64,000 bases of DNA, from the NCBI GenBank assembly GCA_017510065.1, contig JAFWOB010000212.1, positions 1 to 64,000 on the forward strand, written 5' to 3'. Both the position numbers and the translations under genes were made by a program. This document shows, one piece after another, positions 6,089-30,668 of the stretch. Every line of letters starts with the position of its first letter. Within the stretch, counting starts at the first letter, position 1. The notes beneath the pieces were generated by a model. The model had not been told where the DNA came from. It did no database searches and worked only from the letters and a program-made list of their open reading frames with translations. The DNA is from Parasporobacterium sp. Lineage in GTDB: Bacteria > Bacillota > Clostridia > Lachnospirales > Lachnospiraceae.

Positions 6089-6898
6089 TCAGTCCAGATA
6101 CCCTTCTCTCCCCTTCACGCCGAAACGGTCTTCCAGCAGATGCATCTGCTCATCAGTCAGCGTGTTCACTCTCGGGAGATGTGCGATCTTCATGTAGATC
6201 TCGGCAGCTTTTTCTGCCGTTTCGATCAGGCCGAAGGTCTCATCCAGGTCTTTGCCGGCTCCGTAAATGCCGTGCAGTGACCACACTACCAGACGAGAAG
6301 TCTTCATCTTCTCGGCGGTTGCTTCCCCGATCTCGTTGGTACCGCACAGCATCCAGGGAAGGACATTGACGCCGTCCGGGAAGACCACGATGCACTCGGT
6401 GCACATCTGCCACAGTGTCCTGGTAAATTCCCGTTCATCCAGGGTATGAATAAATGTCATCGCCAGGATATTGGTGGGATGACAGTGCATGATCACCTTG
6501 TTGTCCGGATCGATCGCCAGTCTTGCGATATGGCTCATCAGATGGGCCGGAAGTTCCGATGTAAATTTCCCGCCATCCGAATAGCCCCACATCAGTTCCG
6601 CGTCCGTTCCGTTCTGCGCAATCCGGATGAGCCCTAAATTGGCAGCGGGATCGTATTTCACATTCTTGAAATACTTACCGGTCCCTGTTACCAGGAAATA
6701 CCTGCCGATGATCTCTTTCGCGTCGAAATTCAGCGGGATCGTACGGATCACTTCCCCGGAGATGTAGTCCTTTACTTCCTCCTCGGACAAAAGCAAACTG
6801 ATATTGCCGCCGTTTCTTTCATCCCAGCCGTGGAAATACATATTATCGGCGGTATGGATCATGTGTGTCATCCATTTTGCTGTCATGATATCTTTCAT
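6089..6898 (-). CDS. rhaD: Rhamnulose-1-phosphate aldolase
   Basis: A 269-residue class II aldolase close to the usual length of RhaD (about 275). It cleaves L-rhamnulose 1-phosphate into dihydroxyacetone phosphate and lactaldehyde in the cytoplasm. Visible motifs are the N-terminal ERNGGNIS segment, the TSELPAH segment with the catalytic glutamate, the metal ligands MHCHPTN (His-x-His) and a third histidine in SLHGIYG. It is the second gene after the rhamnulokinase in transcription order, 87 bp downstream. Its stop lies 6 bp from the stop of the convergent AraC-GH39 gene. No rhamnose isomerase (RhaA) is present in the window, so the pathway is completed elsewhere or by another isomerase. Confidence 0.95.
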   Translation of the reverse strand: MKDIMTAKWMTHMIHTADNMYFHGWDERNGGNISLLLSEEEVKDYISGEVIRTIPLNFDAKEIIGRYFLVTGTGKYFKNVKYDPAANLGLIRIAQNGTDAELMWGYSDGGKFTSELPAHLMSHIARLAIDPDNKVIMHCHPTNILAMTFIHTLDEREFTRTLWQMCTECIVVFPDGVNVLPWMLCGTNEIGEATAEKMKTSRLVVWSLHGIYGAGKDLDETFGLIETAEKAAEIYMKIAHLPRVNTLTDEQMHLLEDRFGVKGREGYLD

Positions 6899-6985
6899 AG
6901 TAGTTCTCCTCTATATTGTGATTGATCTGTTATCAATAAACATTTTTATGTTTCTGTTTATGGCAACGAATAGCCGGAAAGTTTC

Positions 6986-8257
6986 TTATGCCGGACAGGA
7001 TTCCATCTGGATCTTCAGGTTGCCCAGGGCGGTTGCTTCGATAGGCAGTGCCACAACTTTCTTGCCGGTATACTGTTCTGTCAGTTCATTGAGGTATTGG
7101 TTCTTGGCACCGCCGCCTCCGATGTACAGGTATTCCGGCGCCTTGCCGGTAGCTTCTTCCAATTCCCTCACAGCCTGTCCGTAGCTGTACGCCAGGGAGC
7201 GGTACACGCTGTTGATCACATCGGCGTCGGAAAGCTCCGTCTCACCCAGTTCCCTTAAGATATCCTCCCGGATATGGAAGGGCTCCAGAAAACAGGGAAG
7301 GTTTACGTCAAACAGTTTCTCATAGCTGCTGGAACGGGCCAGATCCACCATTTCCCCGAAGGAAATACCCAGCATTTTCTGCAGGTTCTGGATGATCCAC
7401 AGTCCCATGATATTCTTAAGATACCGGATATAACCCACACCGCCTTCATTGGTGAAATTGGCCTTACGACTCTTCTCAGAGGTTTCCGGCTGTGCAAGTT
7501 TCATACCAAGCAGTGACCAGGTCCCGCTGGACAGGAACATGGCGCCGTCGGGAAGAGGCAGTCCTTCTACTGCAGAGGCGGTATCATGGGTCGGACACAG
7601 CACCACCTTGATGCCTTCATATTCTCCCACACAAGTTCCCGGCATGGAGATCTCACCGAACAGTTTCTCGGGAAGTCCCAGTTTTGAGAGAATCTCCCGG
7701 TCATAATCCCTGGCTTTCGCATTGATGAAACCGCCGGTGGTAGCATTGGTGTACTCATGCTTTTTTACGCCGGTCAACCGGTACATCAGGTACTCCGGTA
7801 CCATCAGGAAATCCGTGACTCCTTCCAGTCTTCCTGCCAGCTTGTCACAATACAGCTGGTAAATGGTATTGAATGGCTGGTACTGGATCCCGGTATGGGC
7901 ATAAAGTTCTTCGAAAGGAACGATTCCATGCACAATTGGGATCACCGCCTCTGTCCGCTTATCCCGATACCCATAGCAGGGATAGACTGTTTCATCACCT
8001 TTGAGCAGGACATAATCTACTCCCCAGGTATCGATGGACATGCAGGAGATGTCTCCAAAGCGCTTCTTTGCCTCCGCAATACCTTCTTTTACATTGGAAA
8101 GCAGCGCATCGATATCCCAGGTCAGATGGCCGTCCAATTCCTTCACACCATTTGGAAAACGAAAGACCTCTTCCGTTTTCAGTTCCTCTCCTTCCTTCCA
8201 GCCAACAATATGACGGCCGGAGGAAGCTCCAATATCCACTGCAAGATAGTACTTCAA
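6986..8257 (-). CDS. rhaB: Rhamnulokinase, C-terminally short
   Basis: An FGGY-family kinase that phosphorylates L-rhamnulose at O1. It starts at TTG 8257, chosen because AAAGGAGA sits 6-7 bases upstream and the protein then begins with the family's KYYLAVDIGASSGRH phosphate-binding strand; the longer upstream frame has no ribosome binding site. Other landmarks are SIDTWGVDYVLL, FLSSGTWSLLG and YIGGGGAKNQYLNEL. The protein is 423 residues and stops 12 residues after ATALGN, whereas homologues such as those of E. coli and B. subtilis are around 485 and continue for roughly 45 more residues. I see no homologous tail in the other two frames, so this is a loss rather than a simple frameshift. It may still be active. 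Confidence 0.9.
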   Translation of the reverse strand: MKYYLAVDIGASSGRHIVGWKEGEELKTEEVFRFPNGVKELDGHLTWDIDALLSNVKEGIAEAKKRFGDISCMSIDTWGVDYVLLKGDETVYPCYGYRDKRTEAVIPIVHGIVPFEELYAHTGIQYQPFNTIYQLYCDKLAGRLEGVTDFLMVPEYLMYRLTGVKKHEYTNATTGGFINAKARDYDREILSKLGLPEKLFGEISMPGTCVGEYEGIKVVLCPTHDTASAVEGLPLPDGAMFLSSGTWSLLGMKLAQPETSEKSRKANFTNEGGVGYIRYLKNIMGLWIIQNLQKMLGISFGEMVDLARSSSYEKLFDVNLPCFLEPFHIREDILRELGETELSDADVINSVYRSLAYSYGQAVRELEEATGKAPEYLYIGGGGAKNQYLNELTEQYTGKKVVALPIEATALGNLKIQMESCPA

Positions 8258-15343: not shown

Positions 15344-16501
15344 TCAATTCTCTAAAGCTTCTATAAATCTCCTGCAGTTGCCGGAAAGATCCGGGGAGAA
15401 CGTAAAGAGTCCTCCTCCCATCAGGAGCGCAACATCTTTTCCGTAAAATTCCTTCATGGCCGGGATCTTCTCAAATGTCATGCCGCCTGCCGGTGCCGGG
15501 AAAATAGGTTTCTTATTCCCATATGGCTCCGTACAGCGATCCACAATATCCCTGCACTGCTGCTGCGAGAAAGAAAACCGCCCTCCGTAATTGGGAAAGA
15601 CCGTGATGTCCGCGCCGCAGATCCTGGGGATCTGGCCATTGATGCAGCCGCATTCAAATCCACCGGAACCTTTGTCCAGGAAACATCCGGCCATCGCCGG
15701 ATGGCAGATCACCGGCAGCGTAGTATGGGAAGCCACATACTGAAGGGTATCGTAGCCCACCAGTCCGGGCGCCAGCATGATCCCGCCTGCTCCGCAGTCC
15801 TGCGCATAACGCACACGGTCCATGATCTTATCGCACTGTCCGGAAAGATTGGGAACATAAGCCGTATATTTGCCGGTCTCCTCAAAGGCACGTTTTACCG
15901 CCGCGCAGACTTCGCGGATTCTTTCTTTAAAGCTGGAAAATGTCTGATCCGCCAGCCCATGATCATCCTTGATCATGTCCACTCCGCCCAACGCACAGAG
16001 GTAGGCTTCCTCTGCAAAGGATTCTGTCGGAAGCCCCATGGGCTTCAATGCGGTAAATGAGATGGGCCTGTCCTTTACGCCCAGCTGTTCCCGGATTCCT
16101 TCCACGCCGAATTTCGGTCCCGGAAACCATTCGTGCTGCTCATCGGAAAGACGGATGTCTTCCACGGTAATTCCCGGAAGGAGGCTGGAATTGCCGAACA
16201 CCACATTCATGAACTGGGCAAATTCCTGTGTTCCGGACTGATCCGAATAACTGATCACTGCCCGATATCCCTGCTCGCAGGGAACAAACTCTTCGATCCG
16301 GCCGATGATATCCGTCTGGATCGCATCGCATTCGATATGGGCGGCGGGAAATTCCACGGTCTGCTCTACCGTAATGTTCTTTGCCATGGACAGGGCATCC
16401 TTTTCCTCCGGCGCAACCGAAGAAGCGATGCGGTAAACAACGGTAAAACGATCATGCAGCTGTGCTCTCAGCACGCTGTCTTCATACCCTTTAAATTTCA
16501 T
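15344..16501 (-). CDS. RuBisCO-like protein (form IV) with KDDH in place of KDDE
   Basis: A 385-residue member of the RuBisCO large-chain superfamily: an N-terminal alpha/beta domain (about 1-125) and a C-terminal barrel. The loop-1 lysine is present (ALKPMG, Lys153), as is the carbamylated-lysine motif IKDDH (Lys178, Asp179, Asp180), with His181 replacing the usual metal-binding glutamate. Other RuBisCO positions differ: CHPAMAG for the HRA motif, NYGGR where Lys334 would lie, and PAGGM near the phosphate site. MGGG near the C-terminus is kept. It is therefore not a CO2-fixing enzyme. Known RuBisCO-like proteins act as enolases, isomerases or decarboxylases, including decarboxylases of branched apiose-derived acids. 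It ends an operon with split transketolase subunits, 2 bp after the preceding gene. Precise reaction unknown. Confidence 0.9.
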   Translation of the reverse strand: MKFKGYEDSVLRAQLHDRFTVVYRIASSVAPEEKDALSMAKNITVEQTVEFPAAHIECDAIQTDIIGRIEEFVPCEQGYRAVISYSDQSGTQEFAQFMNVVFGNSSLLPGITVEDIRLSDEQHEWFPGPKFGVEGIREQLGVKDRPISFTALKPMGLPTESFAEEAYLCALGGVDMIKDDHGLADQTFSSFKERIREVCAAVKRAFEETGKYTAYVPNLSGQCDKIMDRVRYAQDCGAGGIMLAPGLVGYDTLQYVASHTTLPVICHPAMAGCFLDKGSGGFECGCINGQIPRICGADITVFPNYGGRFSFSQQQCRDIVDRCTEPYGNKKPIFPAPAGGMTFEKIPAMKEFYGKDVALLMGGGLFTFSPDLSGNCRRFIEALEN

Positions 16502-16503
16502 TT

Positions 16504-17490
16504 TCAGACCTCCAGATAATCTACAAATCTCTCTTCCAGGAGATAATCTTCTGTAATCTTAAGATCCTTACCGGTCAGCTGCTCCACTGCCCGGACCAGA
16601 TGCATCGCGTCGATCCCGTACTTTTTCATCAGGTACATCTTGGAGGCTCCGTGAGGATAACCCGGAAGCCCGATCTTTACGAGACGCCTGTCCAGGCCGT
16701 TCTCCGCGATCATTTCCGCCACCGCGCTTCCCAGGCCGCCGATCTCATAATGGTTTTCAATGGTCACCGCACCGTATCTGCATTTCCGGAGACTGTCAAG
16801 GATCGTGGGATCTGTAAACGGCTTCATGGTGGACACATGCATATGCTGCACGGAAAGGCCTTTTTCCTTCAGGGCTCCTGTTGCCCTGATCGCTTCCTCG
16901 GTACAGATGCTGGAGGACAGCAGAAGGACGTCCTCGCCTTCACTCAGCACACGGGCCCGATTAAACTGCATCGGCTCTTCCGCCGGGAACAGCCGCGGCA
17001 CTTCTTTCCTCAGCATACGGATAAACACAGGACCGTTCCTTTCGTAGGCCAGATCCAGTACGCCTTCGATCTCCGTGGCATCTCCGATATCGAAGATCGT
17101 CATGTTCGGTACCGTACGCAGCACGCCCACATCATTGATCGACTGGTGGGAAACGCCGCCGGGCGTGGTGATGCCGGGGACAAATCCCACAAAGACCACC
17201 GGGAGATTGGGATATGCCACGCTCATCTCCAGCTGATCCAGGATCCGTCGGTAAAGAAAAACGGAAAACGTATGGATGAAGGGACGATACCCTTCCCTGG
17301 CTAGACCGGCTGCCCAGGAGCACATGTTCTGCTCCGCGATCCCCATGGTGAAATACCGGTCCGGATACGTACTGCGGAATTTTTTTACTTCGCAGGAAGA
17401 TCCCAGATCGGCGGAAAGGACCACCACTTCCGGATGCTTCGCCGCAAACTCGATCATACAGCGTTCATGGGTGTTGACTTCGATCTTCAT
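16504..17490 (-). CDS. Transketolase C-terminal subunit
   Basis: A 328-residue protein holding the pyrimidine-binding and C-terminal domains of transketolase. The catalytic glutamate that activates thiamine diphosphate is in MGIAEQNM (about residue 50). TTPGGVSHQSINDVGVLR provides the family histidine, and the final third is the transketolase C domain (MKPFTDPTILDSLR). It needs the N-terminal subunit encoded just upstream; their genes overlap by 4 bp (ATGA). Together they move two-carbon units between sugar phosphates. Association with a RuBisCO-like protein instead of pentose-phosphate genes suggests a specialised substrate such as apulose 4-phosphate, for which split transketolases are known (inference). 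Confidence 0.92.
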   Translation of the reverse strand: MKIEVNTHERCMIEFAAKHPEVVVLSADLGSSCEVKKFRSTYPDRYFTMGIAEQNMCSWAAGLAREGYRPFIHTFSVFLYRRILDQLEMSVAYPNLPVVFVGFVPGITTPGGVSHQSINDVGVLRTVPNMTIFDIGDATEIEGVLDLAYERNGPVFIRMLRKEVPRLFPAEEPMQFNRARVLSEGEDVLLLSSSICTEEAIRATGALKEKGLSVQHMHVSTMKPFTDPTILDSLRKCRYGAVTIENHYEIGGLGSAVAEMIAENGLDRRLVKIGLPGYPHGASKMYLMKKYGIDAMHLVRAVEQLTGKDLKITEDYLLEERFVDYLEV

Positions 17491-18425
17491 TTTCCTTCAC
17501 CTCCCATCTCTTCGTAGATCTTCTCATATACCGGACGTTCTTCTGGAGAGATCCGTACAAAATGAAGCAGCGGATATTTTTCTTTCAGAGGCGGGACTCC
17601 GGTATAGCCGTGTGTACGGCAGATGACGACCAGAGGTTTTTTCGCGTGACCGGTTCGGCAGGCTTTTACCAGGCTGTCGATGTCATGCCCGTCGCAGGTC
17701 ACACATTTTGCGCCAAAGGAGCAAAACCTTTCCTCCAGAGGCTCTATGATCATCTGGTCCTCGATGGCTCCTTCCACCTGCTGTCCGTTGGCGTCCACGA
17801 TGATGATAAAATTATCCAGCTGATAGTAAGCTGCTGTCTGGATGCATTCCCAGGTCTGGCCCTCCTGGAGTTCTCCGTCTCCCAGGAGGCAGTATACAAG
17901 ACCTGTATCCCCTTTCATCTTTCTGGCATGAGCTGTCCCGGCGGCGATGGATATGGTCTGCCCCAGGGAGCCCGCCGTATTTTCAAATCCGGGAGAATGC
18001 TCTGCACCGATCATTTCCATGTTCCATCCGTCCACATTGAATTTGTCCAGAGCCGAAGGGCTGATCCTGCCGGTCGCTGCCAGCGCGCAGTAGATCACAG
18101 ACGCATAATGGCAGCAGGATACGAAGAAACGGTCTTTGTCCGGAGCAGGTGCTCCGTTGTACAAAGATCCATGCTGATAGTCCATATTATCGGGGCCAGG
18201 CACTCCCGGGAACGGAATGGCATCCCAGGCGCCTGCGGAAGGTCCCAGGTTCATGATCTTCGTGTACAAAGATGCGATGATCTCCGCTGAAGAACAGGCC
18301 TGGGCCAGATAGCATCCCCCGGTCTTCAGCGCGATCCCCAGGATCTGCCGGCGGATGGAATCCGCAATCTTCTGTGTTTCGGCTTTTGTATAACGTGTCT
18401 TTGTTTTTCGCACAAGATCAGTCAT
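17487..18425 (-). CDS. Transketolase N-terminal (thiamine diphosphate-binding) subunit
   Basis: A 312-residue protein with the diphosphate-binding half of transketolase. The thiamine motif is intact (GDGELQEG followed about 26 residues later by VDANGQQ). The substrate and cofactor region GAPAPDKDRFFVSCCHYA and the AEHSPGFENTAGSLGQ loop are recognisable. The ATG at 18425 has AAGGAGGCAGGAT directly before it; an upstream start would run into the promoter. It is the first gene of the transketolase/RuBisCO-like operon and sits 56 bp behind a near-consensus promoter. Confidence 0.92.
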   Translation of the reverse strand: MTDLVRKTKTRYTKAETQKIADSIRRQILGIALKTGGCYLAQACSSAEIIASLYTKIMNLGPSAGAWDAIPFPGVPGPDNMDYQHGSLYNGAPAPDKDRFFVSCCHYASVIYCALAATGRISPSALDKFNVDGWNMEMIGAEHSPGFENTAGSLGQTISIAAGTAHARKMKGDTGLVYCLLGDGELQEGQTWECIQTAAYYQLDNFIIIVDANGQQVEGAIEDQMIIEPLEERFCSFGAKCVTCDGHDIDSLVKACRTGHAKKPLVVICRTHGYTGVPPLKEKYPLLHFVRISPEERPVYEKIYEEMGGEGK

Positions 18426-18480: not shown

Positions 18481-18509
18481 ATTATACTACCGGGAAAATA
18501 CCTGTTCAA
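18481..18509 (-). promoter_or_regulatory. Near-consensus promoter of the transketolase/RuBisCO-like operon
   Basis: On the minus strand TTGAAC (18504-18509) and a perfect TATAAT (18481-18486) are spaced by exactly 17 bp. The -35 lies in the loop/stem of an imperfect hairpin with arms ACCGGGA and TCCCGGT (about 18489-18526). That hairpin immediately follows the stop of the SDF transporter and may terminate it or act as an operator. Confidence 0.75.
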
Positions 18510-29438: not shown

Positions 29439-30668
29439 TCAACTGCTGTATGGATCTTTCAATAATGCAAGCAGATCGTCTGCAAGGGCATCCGCTGCTT
29501 TAAGTTTTCCGGTCAGACGGTCCGGTACAGAAGGCAGGATCAGCTTTCTGCTCCGGATGCCTGCATCTGAAGCAATGGCCAGATAGATTTCACCCGGTAC
29601 ACTGTCCTGATTTTCCGGATCCGCATTTGCCATGGTCCCGGTAATTCCCACTCCGATCTGCGCATTGTAAGCCGAGCGGCAGGCTAGAGCCATTTCTTCC
29701 GCTGTTTCCAGGGAATATACCCCATAACGGCGGATCACCTCCGGAGGAACCCCCTGCATGATCTTGGCTTCGTTGCAGTAGGTCACAAAAGCTCCCTTCA
29801 GGATGCTTGAAGATCCTTCTGTATCCGTAAGAAGAGAAGCTACCAGCCCCGCACTGCAGCTCTCCATGGTAGAAATAGAGATACTCCTCTCAATCAGGGT
29901 CTTTGTAATGGTCCGGTATTTCGCCCGTACGGCGGAAAGTTCTGCAAGTTCCGACTCCGGACATCTGTCGGCGGCAGAAGCAGCGGTAGCCGCGGCATCA
30001 CCGGCAGTTTCCAACAGGTCCGGCCGCAGCAGCTTTGTGATGCGCAGAGCTTCCTTCCTGCGCCAGTCGGCAATCGCTTCATGGTTGCCGGACAGCAGGA
30101 TCTCCGGAACTTTCATACCCTTAAAATACGCAGGTCTTGTATACTGGGGATATTCCAGTAAGCCTTGTTCAAAAGACTCTTCCAGCGTACTCTCTTCCTT
30201 CATGCTTCCTTTCACAAGGCGCATCAGGGAATCGACGACCACCATGGCAGGCAGTTCACCGCCGGTGAGGACATAGTCTCCGACAGACAGCAGTTCATCT
30301 GCACTGGGATAAATGCGGGCATCCAGTCCTTCATAATGTCCGCAGACCAGGATCAGATGGTTAAGCTGTGCCAGACGATGGGCATCTGATTGTGTATAAG
30401 TCTTCCCAACCGGTGCGAGGATAATGGTATGGCTGGCTTCTGTACGCACTGCGTCCAGCGCATCCAGCACCGGCTGACAGCGCAGGATCATGCCGGCGCC
30501 TCCCCCATACGGGGAGTCGTCCACCTGCCGAAAACTGCCCGGGGCATAATCCCTGATATCTACGATCTTCAGTTCCAACAGTCCTGAGTCTTCCGCCCGC
30601 GCGATCAGTGGCGTCCTTCGGAAATCTCCGAACTGCTCGGGACAGATTGTCAAAATCGTTATCTTCAT
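29439..30668 (-). CDS. trmD: TrmD-CinA fusion: tRNA m1G37 methyltransferase with C-terminal CinA-type deamidase
   Basis: A 409-residue fusion. Residues 1-225 are a complete TrmD, with the SAM-binding trefoil-knot motifs CGHYEGLDAR and SVGDYVLTGGELP and the catalytic-region pattern DSPYGGGAGM; it methylates G37 of tRNA to prevent frameshifting. After an Ala-rich linker (about 225-245), residues 250-405 are a CinA C-terminal domain (TMESCSAGLVASLLTD, GAFVTYCNEAK, ETAEEMALA, VGITGTMAN), the NMN amidohydrolase module. The gene is not in the usual rpsP-rimM-trmD-rplS setting but 9 bp behind a xylulokinase gene at the end of a sugar operon. The frame is continuous, so the fusion is real in this sequence. 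Confidence 0.93.
   Translation of the reverse strand: MKITILTICPEQFGDFRRTPLIARAEDSGLLELKIVDIRDYAPGSFRQVDDSPYGGGAGMILRCQPVLDALDAVRTEASHTIILAPVGKTYTQSDAHRLAQLNHLILVCGHYEGLDARIYPSADELLSVGDYVLTGGELPAMVVVDSLMRLVKGSMKEESTLEESFEQGLLEYPQYTRPAYFKGMKVPEILLSGNHEAIADWRRKEALRITKLLRPDLLETAGDAAATAASAADRCPESELAELSAVRAKYRTITKTLIERSISISTMESCSAGLVASLLTDTEGSSSILKGAFVTYCNEAKIMQGVPPEVIRRYGVYSLETAEEMALACRSAYNAQIGVGITGTMANADPENQDSVPGEIYLAIASDAGIRSRKLILPSVPDRLTGKLKAADALADDLLALLKDPYSS

Follow-up and report, generated by a model that had tools for sequence, protein, structure and literature searches.

The window (the whole stretch of DNA analysed here, 64,000 nucleotides) comes from the genome of a bacterium whose close relatives live in animal guts and encodes the two subunits of a split transketolase and a RuBisCO-like protein (RLP) in genes that run head-to-tail along the minus strand, downstream of a near-consensus promoter. 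TktN (17487-18425, minus strand, 312 amino acids) was identified with Pfam PF00456 (Transketolase_N, 2.2e-22), alignments and a tree, TktC (16504-17490, minus strand, 328 amino acids) with PF02779 (Transket_pyr, 8.8e-30), PF02780 (Transketolase_C, 9.7e-19) and alignments, and the RLP (15344-16501, minus strand, 385 amino acids) with PF00016 (RuBisCO_large, 2.2e-24), a tree and a motif table; all of these matches lie over the gathering scores. The TktN and TktC genes overlap by 4 bases and a gap of 2 bases separates the TktC gene from the RLP gene; together with the coordinates and the Pfam matches, this bears out the single operon of split transketolase and RLP proposed in the first-pass annotation. 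The longest open frame of TktN begins with a TTG at 18509, but since this start overlaps the promoter and AAGGAGG is located 6 bases ahead of the ATG at 18425, the ATG is the preferred start. The sigma-70-like promoter ahead of the operon (TTGAAC-17-TATAAT, 18481-18509, minus strand), found by pattern scan and sequence reading, matches the consensus at 10 of 12 positions. The near-consensus site claimed earlier is thus present, but by itself it is weak evidence, because 7 promoter-like sites occurred in 4.2 kb and shuffled sequences gave a mean of 3.4 (sd 1.8). The three-gene set is non-random: it recurs adjacent in many other loci.

In a 50-row tree the RLP fell within a set of 25 rows that includes cupin-linked RLPs of Rhodopseudomonas (support 100/100) and lies apart from OiaX, MtnW, the Photo RLPs and RuBisCO. 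The motif KDDH is found in 23 of these 25 rows, the other two being Nitrospira sequences with KDDQ, and the fourth position is Glu in 25/25 rows outside the clade. The RLP itself reads KDDHGLADQ, HPAMAG and FPNYGGRF; the catalytic Lys and the KDD are kept (K153 and K178-D179-D180 are invariant in 17/17 aligned rows), and H181 is kept in at least 90% of the 17 rows. Its best solved relative is 3qfw (E 1.7e-72, 39% identity). Identity to the compared Rhodopseudomonas RLPs is just 34-36%; judging from the adjoining cupin these are presumably RLP1. The studied member of the DeepYkr clade is a 5-methylthioribulose-1-phosphate 1,3-isomerase (PMC5893883), and by its clade the RLP of the window is predicted to have this activity. 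The placement in the DeepYkr methionine-salvage clade is a result that the first-pass annotation had named beforehand as refuting its proposal.

Judged by its sequence, TktNC is a non-canonical split transketolase, TktN being the N-terminal subunit that binds ThDP and TktC the subunit with the pyrimidine-binding and C-terminal parts. Both subunits belong to transketolase families in Pfam and have as their best solved match the split transketolase of Carboxydothermus hydrogenoformans (6yak, 6yaj), which has the same two-subunit architecture; unlike that enzyme, TktN is without the GHP histidine motifs and contains an additional stretch of about 27 residues (PFPGVPGP...), and TktC is without the Asp of GEDG. 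TktN reads GGCYLAQACSSAE where others have GHPGGSLSAAD and IGAEHSPG where others have GHPDMxKVPG, and TktNC is therefore without both GHP-type histidines found in the N-terminal part of canonical (pentose phosphate) transketolase. The His of the first motif is missing in 24/24 non-canonical rows and there in all 15 comparison rows with letters at this position; that of the second is missing in 24/24 and there in 16/16. In TktC the catalytic Glu motif AEQN is retained and GFVPGITTPGGVSHQ replaces the ATHxGISVGEDGASHQ of many comparison enzymes; the His and Asp of this motif are missing in 24/24 non-canonical rows, but their loss says little because 6 and 7, respectively, of the 16 comparison rows share it. 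A single long branch (100/100) unites 21 of the 22 RLP-linked transketolases with two others, the transketolase of locus L028 falling outside this lineage. The two others stem from one genome (G096), in which they adjoin a gene for an SDR or a 3-hydroxyisobutyrate-dehydrogenase-like protein and no RLP. The changed motifs are hence not specific to the pathway of the RLP-linked enzymes, and their use as a pathway mark is weakened by these two enzymes as well as by the comparison rows that share the TktC loss. The window's genome contains two further transketolases, both with the His motifs intact.

The genome-neighbourhood comparison suggested with the first-pass annotation was carried out on 46 loci (the window, the 39 loci L012-L050 and 6 loci from a class-wide sample, L051-L091 with 41 loci being left out), 25 of which were placed in the RLP tree. 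The transketolase is encoded beside the RLP in 15/46 loci, and in 14 of them directly upstream on the same strand. A cupin, the known next enzyme, lies beside the RLP in 8/46 loci; transketolase and cupin never occur together (0/46), and a search for a cupin gave no match in the window, nor in any of the 14 further loci with the transketolase. Neither neighbour is near the RLP in 23/46 loci, three of which (L013, L014, L017) have the transketolase farther along the same contig. All three genes stand next to one another in L012, L018, L026, L027, L028, L190, L192, L193 and L194, the transketolase is fused and beside the RLP in L021, L022 and L023, and in L191 mtnA (401.8 bits, cut-off 279) is inserted between tktN and tktC. 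Among gene families within 9 kb of the RLP (21 loci, shadow frames of the opposite strand excluded by hand), those that keep returning across most lineages are the transketolase subunits and, after them, MtnA. Across the 20 genomes behind L012-L031 this transketolase is present in 16, in one case at just 38%. None of these neighbours was seen in L020, L024, L025, L195 and 12 Nitrospira loci, L024 and L025 being located at contig ends. The pairing extends from Lachnospiraceae and other families of the class to Spirochaetes, Chloroflexi, Aminicenantes and Myxococcota, and in an Acidobacteria genome the transketolase lies 2.3 kb from the RLP; many of these genomes are metagenome assemblies.

Genes for MtnA and MtnK recur beside the RLP-transketolase pair in three phyla. 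Near the RLP, mtnA occurs in L013-L017, L019, L021, L022, L023 and L026, and mtnK in the same loci except L022, with a weak mtnK (24%) in L031. L018 contains an MtnA-like frame (31%) 5.2 kb from the RLP on the opposite strand, which was excluded from the counts. The window's genome encodes MtnK and MtnA, together with a class II aldolase, on a different contig within a microcompartment locus; MtnK and MtnA are 84% and 89% identical to their L013 counterparts and exceed methylthioribose-specific cut-offs. They are candidates for the partners that had been expected at other loci. The partners named at 30-41 kb of the window did not hold up, the FGGY kinase there scoring 577.7 bits as a xylulokinase equivalog (cut-off 380.25), with no operon link seen. 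RLP and MtnK occur in the same 3 of 14 same-genus genomes. Among 391 genomes of the class, the window's own included, MtnK was found in 14 and the RLP in 7 (E<=1e-60 each), and RLP and close MtnK coincide in the window's genome alone. Five of the other six RLP loci of the class have the transketolase and one has MtnA, none of the six having MtnK nearby; neither RLP nor transketolase was found at the 4 loci fetched out of the 13 other MtnK loci, which indicates that MtnK often functions in the absence of both. The idea of MtnK as a general partner thus holds just partly, and weight was moved to MtnA and to the pairing with the transketolase.

We consider it rather probable that RLP and TktNC catalyse two successive steps in the breakdown of 5-methylthioribose or 5-deoxyribose, by-products salvaged from S-adenosylmethionine; the earlier claim that both enzymes act in turn on one sugar phosphate is probably right. 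MtnK would add phosphate to the pentose, MtnA would form 5-methylthio- (or 5-deoxy-) ribulose 1-phosphate, and the RLP would shift the carbonyl (1,3-isomerization) to give 1-methylthio-xylulose 5-phosphate (or 1-deoxyxylulose 5-phosphate). Standing in for the cupin, the two-subunit transketolase would presumably split this product between C2 and C3 into glyceraldehyde 3-phosphate and a two-carbon unit on ThDP, which might leave as an aldehyde or go to an acceptor; the side group could be either SCH3 or H. The direct observations behind the proposal are the operon, the clade, the genomic links, the transketolase-or-cupin split and the altered transketolase motifs.

Rhodospirillum rubrum and Rhodopseudomonas palustris have an MTA-isoprenoid shunt (PMC4958253, PMC5893883) in which a cupin methylsulfurylase acts on the RLP product; this shunt is alike in using an RLP of the same clade, in MtnA supplying the substrate and in the presumed next-enzyme gene adjoining the RLP gene. 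It differs in having the cupin where the window's operon has the transketolase, and in using a phosphorylase where MtnK is found here wherever there is a kinase. The DHAP shunt for 5'-deoxynucleosides (MtnK, MtnA and Ald2; PMC10986504, PMC6079011) has MtnK and MtnA as well as a class II aldolase in common with the microcompartment locus; its aldolase route alone needs neither RLP nor transketolase, both of which are added here. Our search, which reached few subscription papers, found no account of the RLP-transketolase pairing, in keeping with the first-pass annotation's view of it as undescribed, and nothing direct on a methylthioribose microcompartment.

Split transketolases and RLPs occur in D-apiose and apionate pathways, as apulose-4-phosphate transketolase or OiaX, and these shared enzyme kinds underlay the earlier idea of a branched-sugar substrate, in which the RLP would be a decarboxylase of 3-oxo-isoapionate 4-phosphate or a related compound, with apulose 4-phosphate as the substrate of TktNC. 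Apiose-pathway RLPs are mentioned in PMC6302742. The idea was not borne out by the RLP or by the gene neighbours and we regard it as very improbable: the RLP scores 71.7 bits against an OiaX cut-off of 700, well-supported branches and different active-site motifs part it from 8 OiaX sequences, and the sugar-phosphate gene recurring beside the pair is that of MtnA or MtnK. A methionine-salvage enolase of the MtnW/YkrW type, with 2,3-diketo-5-methylthiopentyl-1-phosphate as its substrate, beside an unrelated transketolase is barely credible; although the MtnW model NF007095 is the best NCBIfam match of the RLP, its 207.2 bits are far under the cut-off of 409 (L051 scores 597.6), and the MtnW rows form their own clade with KDDE. 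Both identities were dismissed.

It is unlikely that regulation alone is shared, the RLP making 1-deoxyxylulose 5-phosphate for isoprenoids and the transketolase using another substrate. Once made from 5-deoxyribulose 1-phosphate, 1-deoxyxylulose 5-phosphate would presumably need no added enzyme, and members of the transketolase lineage do sit in other operons without an RLP, but adjacency in 14/46 loci of several phyla and the exclusion of the cupin are hard to explain without a common pathway. Quite unlikely in our view is a ribose route, in which MtnK- and MtnA-like enzymes would yield ribulose 1-phosphate, the RLP xylulose 5-phosphate and the transketolase an entry into the pentose phosphate pathway. 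With a hydroxyl side group, 1,3-isomerization would be expected to give a normal transketolase donor, and the sugar ABC importer found with MtnK is nearest to arabinose and ribose importers, albeit under their cut-offs. Against this stand the methylthioribose-specific scores of MtnK and MtnA, the absence from the RLP-linked transketolase of two histidines that the comparison enzymes retain, and the two further transketolases of the genome.

Within the favoured two-step breakdown, a more specific and distinctly unlikely version would make TktNC a methylthio-ketolase, which would cleave 1-methylthio-xylulose 5-phosphate, eliminate methanethiol from the enamine on ThDP, much as water is lost in the phosphoketolase reaction, and leave acetyl-ThDP. 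RLP and TktNC would then yield an acetyl group and glyceraldehyde 3-phosphate and supply methionine synthesis with methanethiol. Several phyla would have a methionine salvage that needs no oxygen and dispenses with cupin, dioxygenase and methylthioalkane reductase, and in some of these phyla it would stand next to a DHAP shunt enclosed in a microcompartment. A Cys/Met PLP enzyme, tried as a sign of methionine recovery, was rejected, since it occurs in L031 only among the fetched loci and there lies under the cut-offs of all 25 models listed.

If the two-step breakdown is true, it represents a novel form of an established salvage route, encoded by a gene unit that distant bacteria share. It would provide a second way of continuing from the RLP isomerase when S-adenosylmethionine by-products are salvaged, as well as a substrate class for the non-canonical transketolase lineage, and would open to direct testing the question of how methanethiol could be recovered by anaerobes that lack the known enzymes. 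Since E. coli strains lacking the DHAP shunt excrete both 5-deoxyribose and methylthioribose (PMC10986504), gut anaerobes able to take up and ferment the two sugars would fill a cross-feeding niche.

The three-gene unit proposed by the first-pass annotation was borne out: the two subunits of a split transketolase, TktN (18425-17487) and TktC (17490-16504), and the RuBisCO-like protein (RLP, 16501-15344) follow one another on the minus strand, each supported by a Pfam match, with a 4-base overlap between TktN and TktC and a 2-base gap between TktC and RLP. A pattern scan placed a promoter-like site, TTGAAC-17-TATAAT, at 18509-18481 on the same strand; the upstream gene encodes an SDF-type symporter and the downstream gene a YqeY-like protein. 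The same three genes stand together at L012, a locus of genome G001, where, among the genes listed around the unit, no flanking gene except one ABC ATPase clustered with those of the window. Elsewhere in the window (29439-30668, minus strand), TrmD (tRNA methyltransferase) and a CinA/PncC domain are joined in one frame.

A RuBisCO-like match of some kind was found in 10 of the 98 genomes searched (own genome included), and a close match only in the own genome, G001 and G013. From a scan of named genomes, 80 of 481 confirmed relatives were kept (L012-L091), and among these 80 the identity to the window RLP was 66-80% for L012-L019, 42-46% for L020-L027, 30-39% for L028-L050 and 28-31% for L051-L091. 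All but two of L051-L091 carry Paenibacillus titles, and L051, the one member of this group examined, passed the MtnW cut-offs. In a tree of 50 rows, some of them long and to be placed exactly only with caution, the window family, L020-L031, Rhodopseudomonas and Nitrospira formed a set of 25 rows (support 100/100) apart from OiaX, MtnW, Photo, RuBisCO and a Lachnospiraceae group. KDDH is present in 23 of these 25 rows, and Glu occupies the fourth place of this motif in all 25 rows outside the set; the two Nitrospira RLPs in the tree have KDDQ instead. Twelve Nitrospira RLPs belong to the same broad group (L032-L034, L038, L040, L041, L043-L046, L048 and L049), and no Mtn, transketolase or cupin neighbour was seen at these 12 loci. 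Distant RLPs in 7 of the 98 genomes (L004-L010), with KDDE and the motif MIKPCTG, form a branch of their own (90/83) adjoining MtnW.

The transketolase was found in 16 of the 20 genomes behind L012-L031 (one of the 16 at 38% identity), the other four (G106, G111, G116 and G117) having more distant transketolases only. Five of 98 relatives (own genome, G001, G012, G013 and G096) contain the transketolase at E<=1e-40. Among 14 same-genus genomes, RLP is present in three, methylthioribose kinase (MtnK) in the same three and the transketolase in four, the fourth being G012, which is 79% complete and has the gene at a contig end. TktN-TktC-RLP is the arrangement at L027 and L028 and also at L026, which has in addition the isomerase that follows MtnK (MtnA, 41%) and, 8.9 kb away, MtnK (35%). 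L022 reads MtnA, fused transketolase, RLP, and in L021 and L023 ABC genes and MtnK precede this order; at L021 a D-serine ammonia-lyase equivalog (6583-7932) separates MtnA from the fused transketolase. At L013-L017 and L019, RLP is accompanied by MtnK, MtnA, a DeoR-type regulator and a class II aldolase, with a sugar ABC importer ahead of MtnK wherever the stretch extends that far (not L016). PduL, EutN, aldehyde dehydrogenase, an RnfC-like protein and BMC shell proteins then follow in L013, L014, L016 and L019, and in more distant versions in L017; L015 stops at the aldolase. TktN-TktC shares the contig with the ABC-MtnK-MtnA-RLP locus in L013, L014 and L017, where the contigs match in length, and in the L016 genome it lies with the ABC genes on a separate contig.

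An independent sample of 391 genomes of the class (own included; E<=1e-60 for RLP and for MtnK) argues against a fixed partnership of RLP with MtnK: RLP occurs in 7 and MtnK in 14 of the 391, and the two coincide only in the window's genome, which is the main result against such a pairing. Neither RLP nor transketolase was found at the 4 loci fetched of the 13 other MtnK loci. TktN-TktC directly adjoins RLP in five of the six other RLP genomes. At L191 an MtnA passing its cut-off is inserted between TktN and TktC, at L190 and L192 a class II aldolase frame lies on the other strand within 2.9 kb, and L195 has no transketolase, MtnA or aldolase neighbour.

Of 46 tabulated loci (the window, the 39 loci L012-L050 and 6 from the class sample; 25 in the RLP tree, the remainder assigned on similarity only), TktC is present in 15, a cupin in 8, both in none and neither in 23, the last including 12 from Nitrospira and the six loci L013-L017 and L019. 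In R. palustris, according to PMC5893883 and PMC4958253, RLP1 is a 1,3-isomerase and the cupin acts next in the pathway. Most simply read, the transketolase replaces the cupin. Judged by its clade, RLP would carry out a 1,3-isomerization. The transketolase may in turn cleave the product of that step, yielding a two-carbon unit.

The transketolases themselves are unusual. Of 22 RLP-linked rows, four of which (L015g, L016g, L019g and L024g) come from a different contig of the RLP's genome, 21 formed one set with two rows from G096, on a branch 2.14 long (support 100/100); the L028 transketolase fell outside this set. The His of GHPGGSLSAAD is absent from all 24 non-canonical rows (L028 included) and present in all 15 comparison rows that have a residue at this position, and the His of GHPDMxKVPG is absent from the same 24 and present in 16/16 comparison rows. 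IGAEHSPG is found in all but one of the 22 RLP-linked rows, with variants in the two G096 rows. In the yeast and human enzymes the N-terminal histidines hold donor hydroxyl groups, and their loss would suit a donor without the C1 hydroxyl. The TktC of the window retains the AEQN motif. All 24 non-canonical TktC rows lack the His and Asp of ATHxG...GEDG, but of the 16 comparison rows 6 also lack the His and 7 the Asp, so that this change is weak evidence. The G096 enzymes, two further non-canonical split transketolases without RLP (L161, 8386-10317, and L162, 9016-10903), share the changed motifs, indicating that His loss is not confined to the RLP pathway; one follows an SDR gene and the other precedes a 3-hydroxyisobutyrate-dehydrogenase-like gene.

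In the own genome, MtnK and MtnA lie on another contig, C68, inside a complete microcompartment locus (L094, 160-19224) that contains no RLP. Besides these two genes it encodes a sugar ABC importer, class II aldolase, PduL, aldehyde dehydrogenase, an RnfC-like protein, BMC and EutN shell proteins, DhaK, DhaL and Fe-ADH. G001 has the same kind of complete locus; in G013 part of it is present, cut off by the start of the contig. This type of locus, seen at L094, L097 and, partly, L098, is a candidate metabolosome for 5-deoxypentoses. By eye, the C68 aldolase and aldehyde dehydrogenase have extensions resembling microcompartment targeting helices, and RLP, TktN and TktC have none; the reactions of RLP and transketolase may therefore take place outside the shell. 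In the literature searched we found no paper linking transketolase to methylthioribose/5-deoxyribose salvage or methylthioribose to a microcompartment; the word transketolase is absent from PMC6302742 and PMC4958253, and methylthio and mtnK terms from the main text of the catalogue PMC8217296. For A. woodii, PMC7593272 describes a methylthioribose kinase gene adjacent to a pdu cluster and regards this gene as having no connection with the compartment. DhaK and DhaL, of the dihydroxyacetone kinase type, accompany the MtnK/MtnA cluster in L013, L017, L122 and L094.
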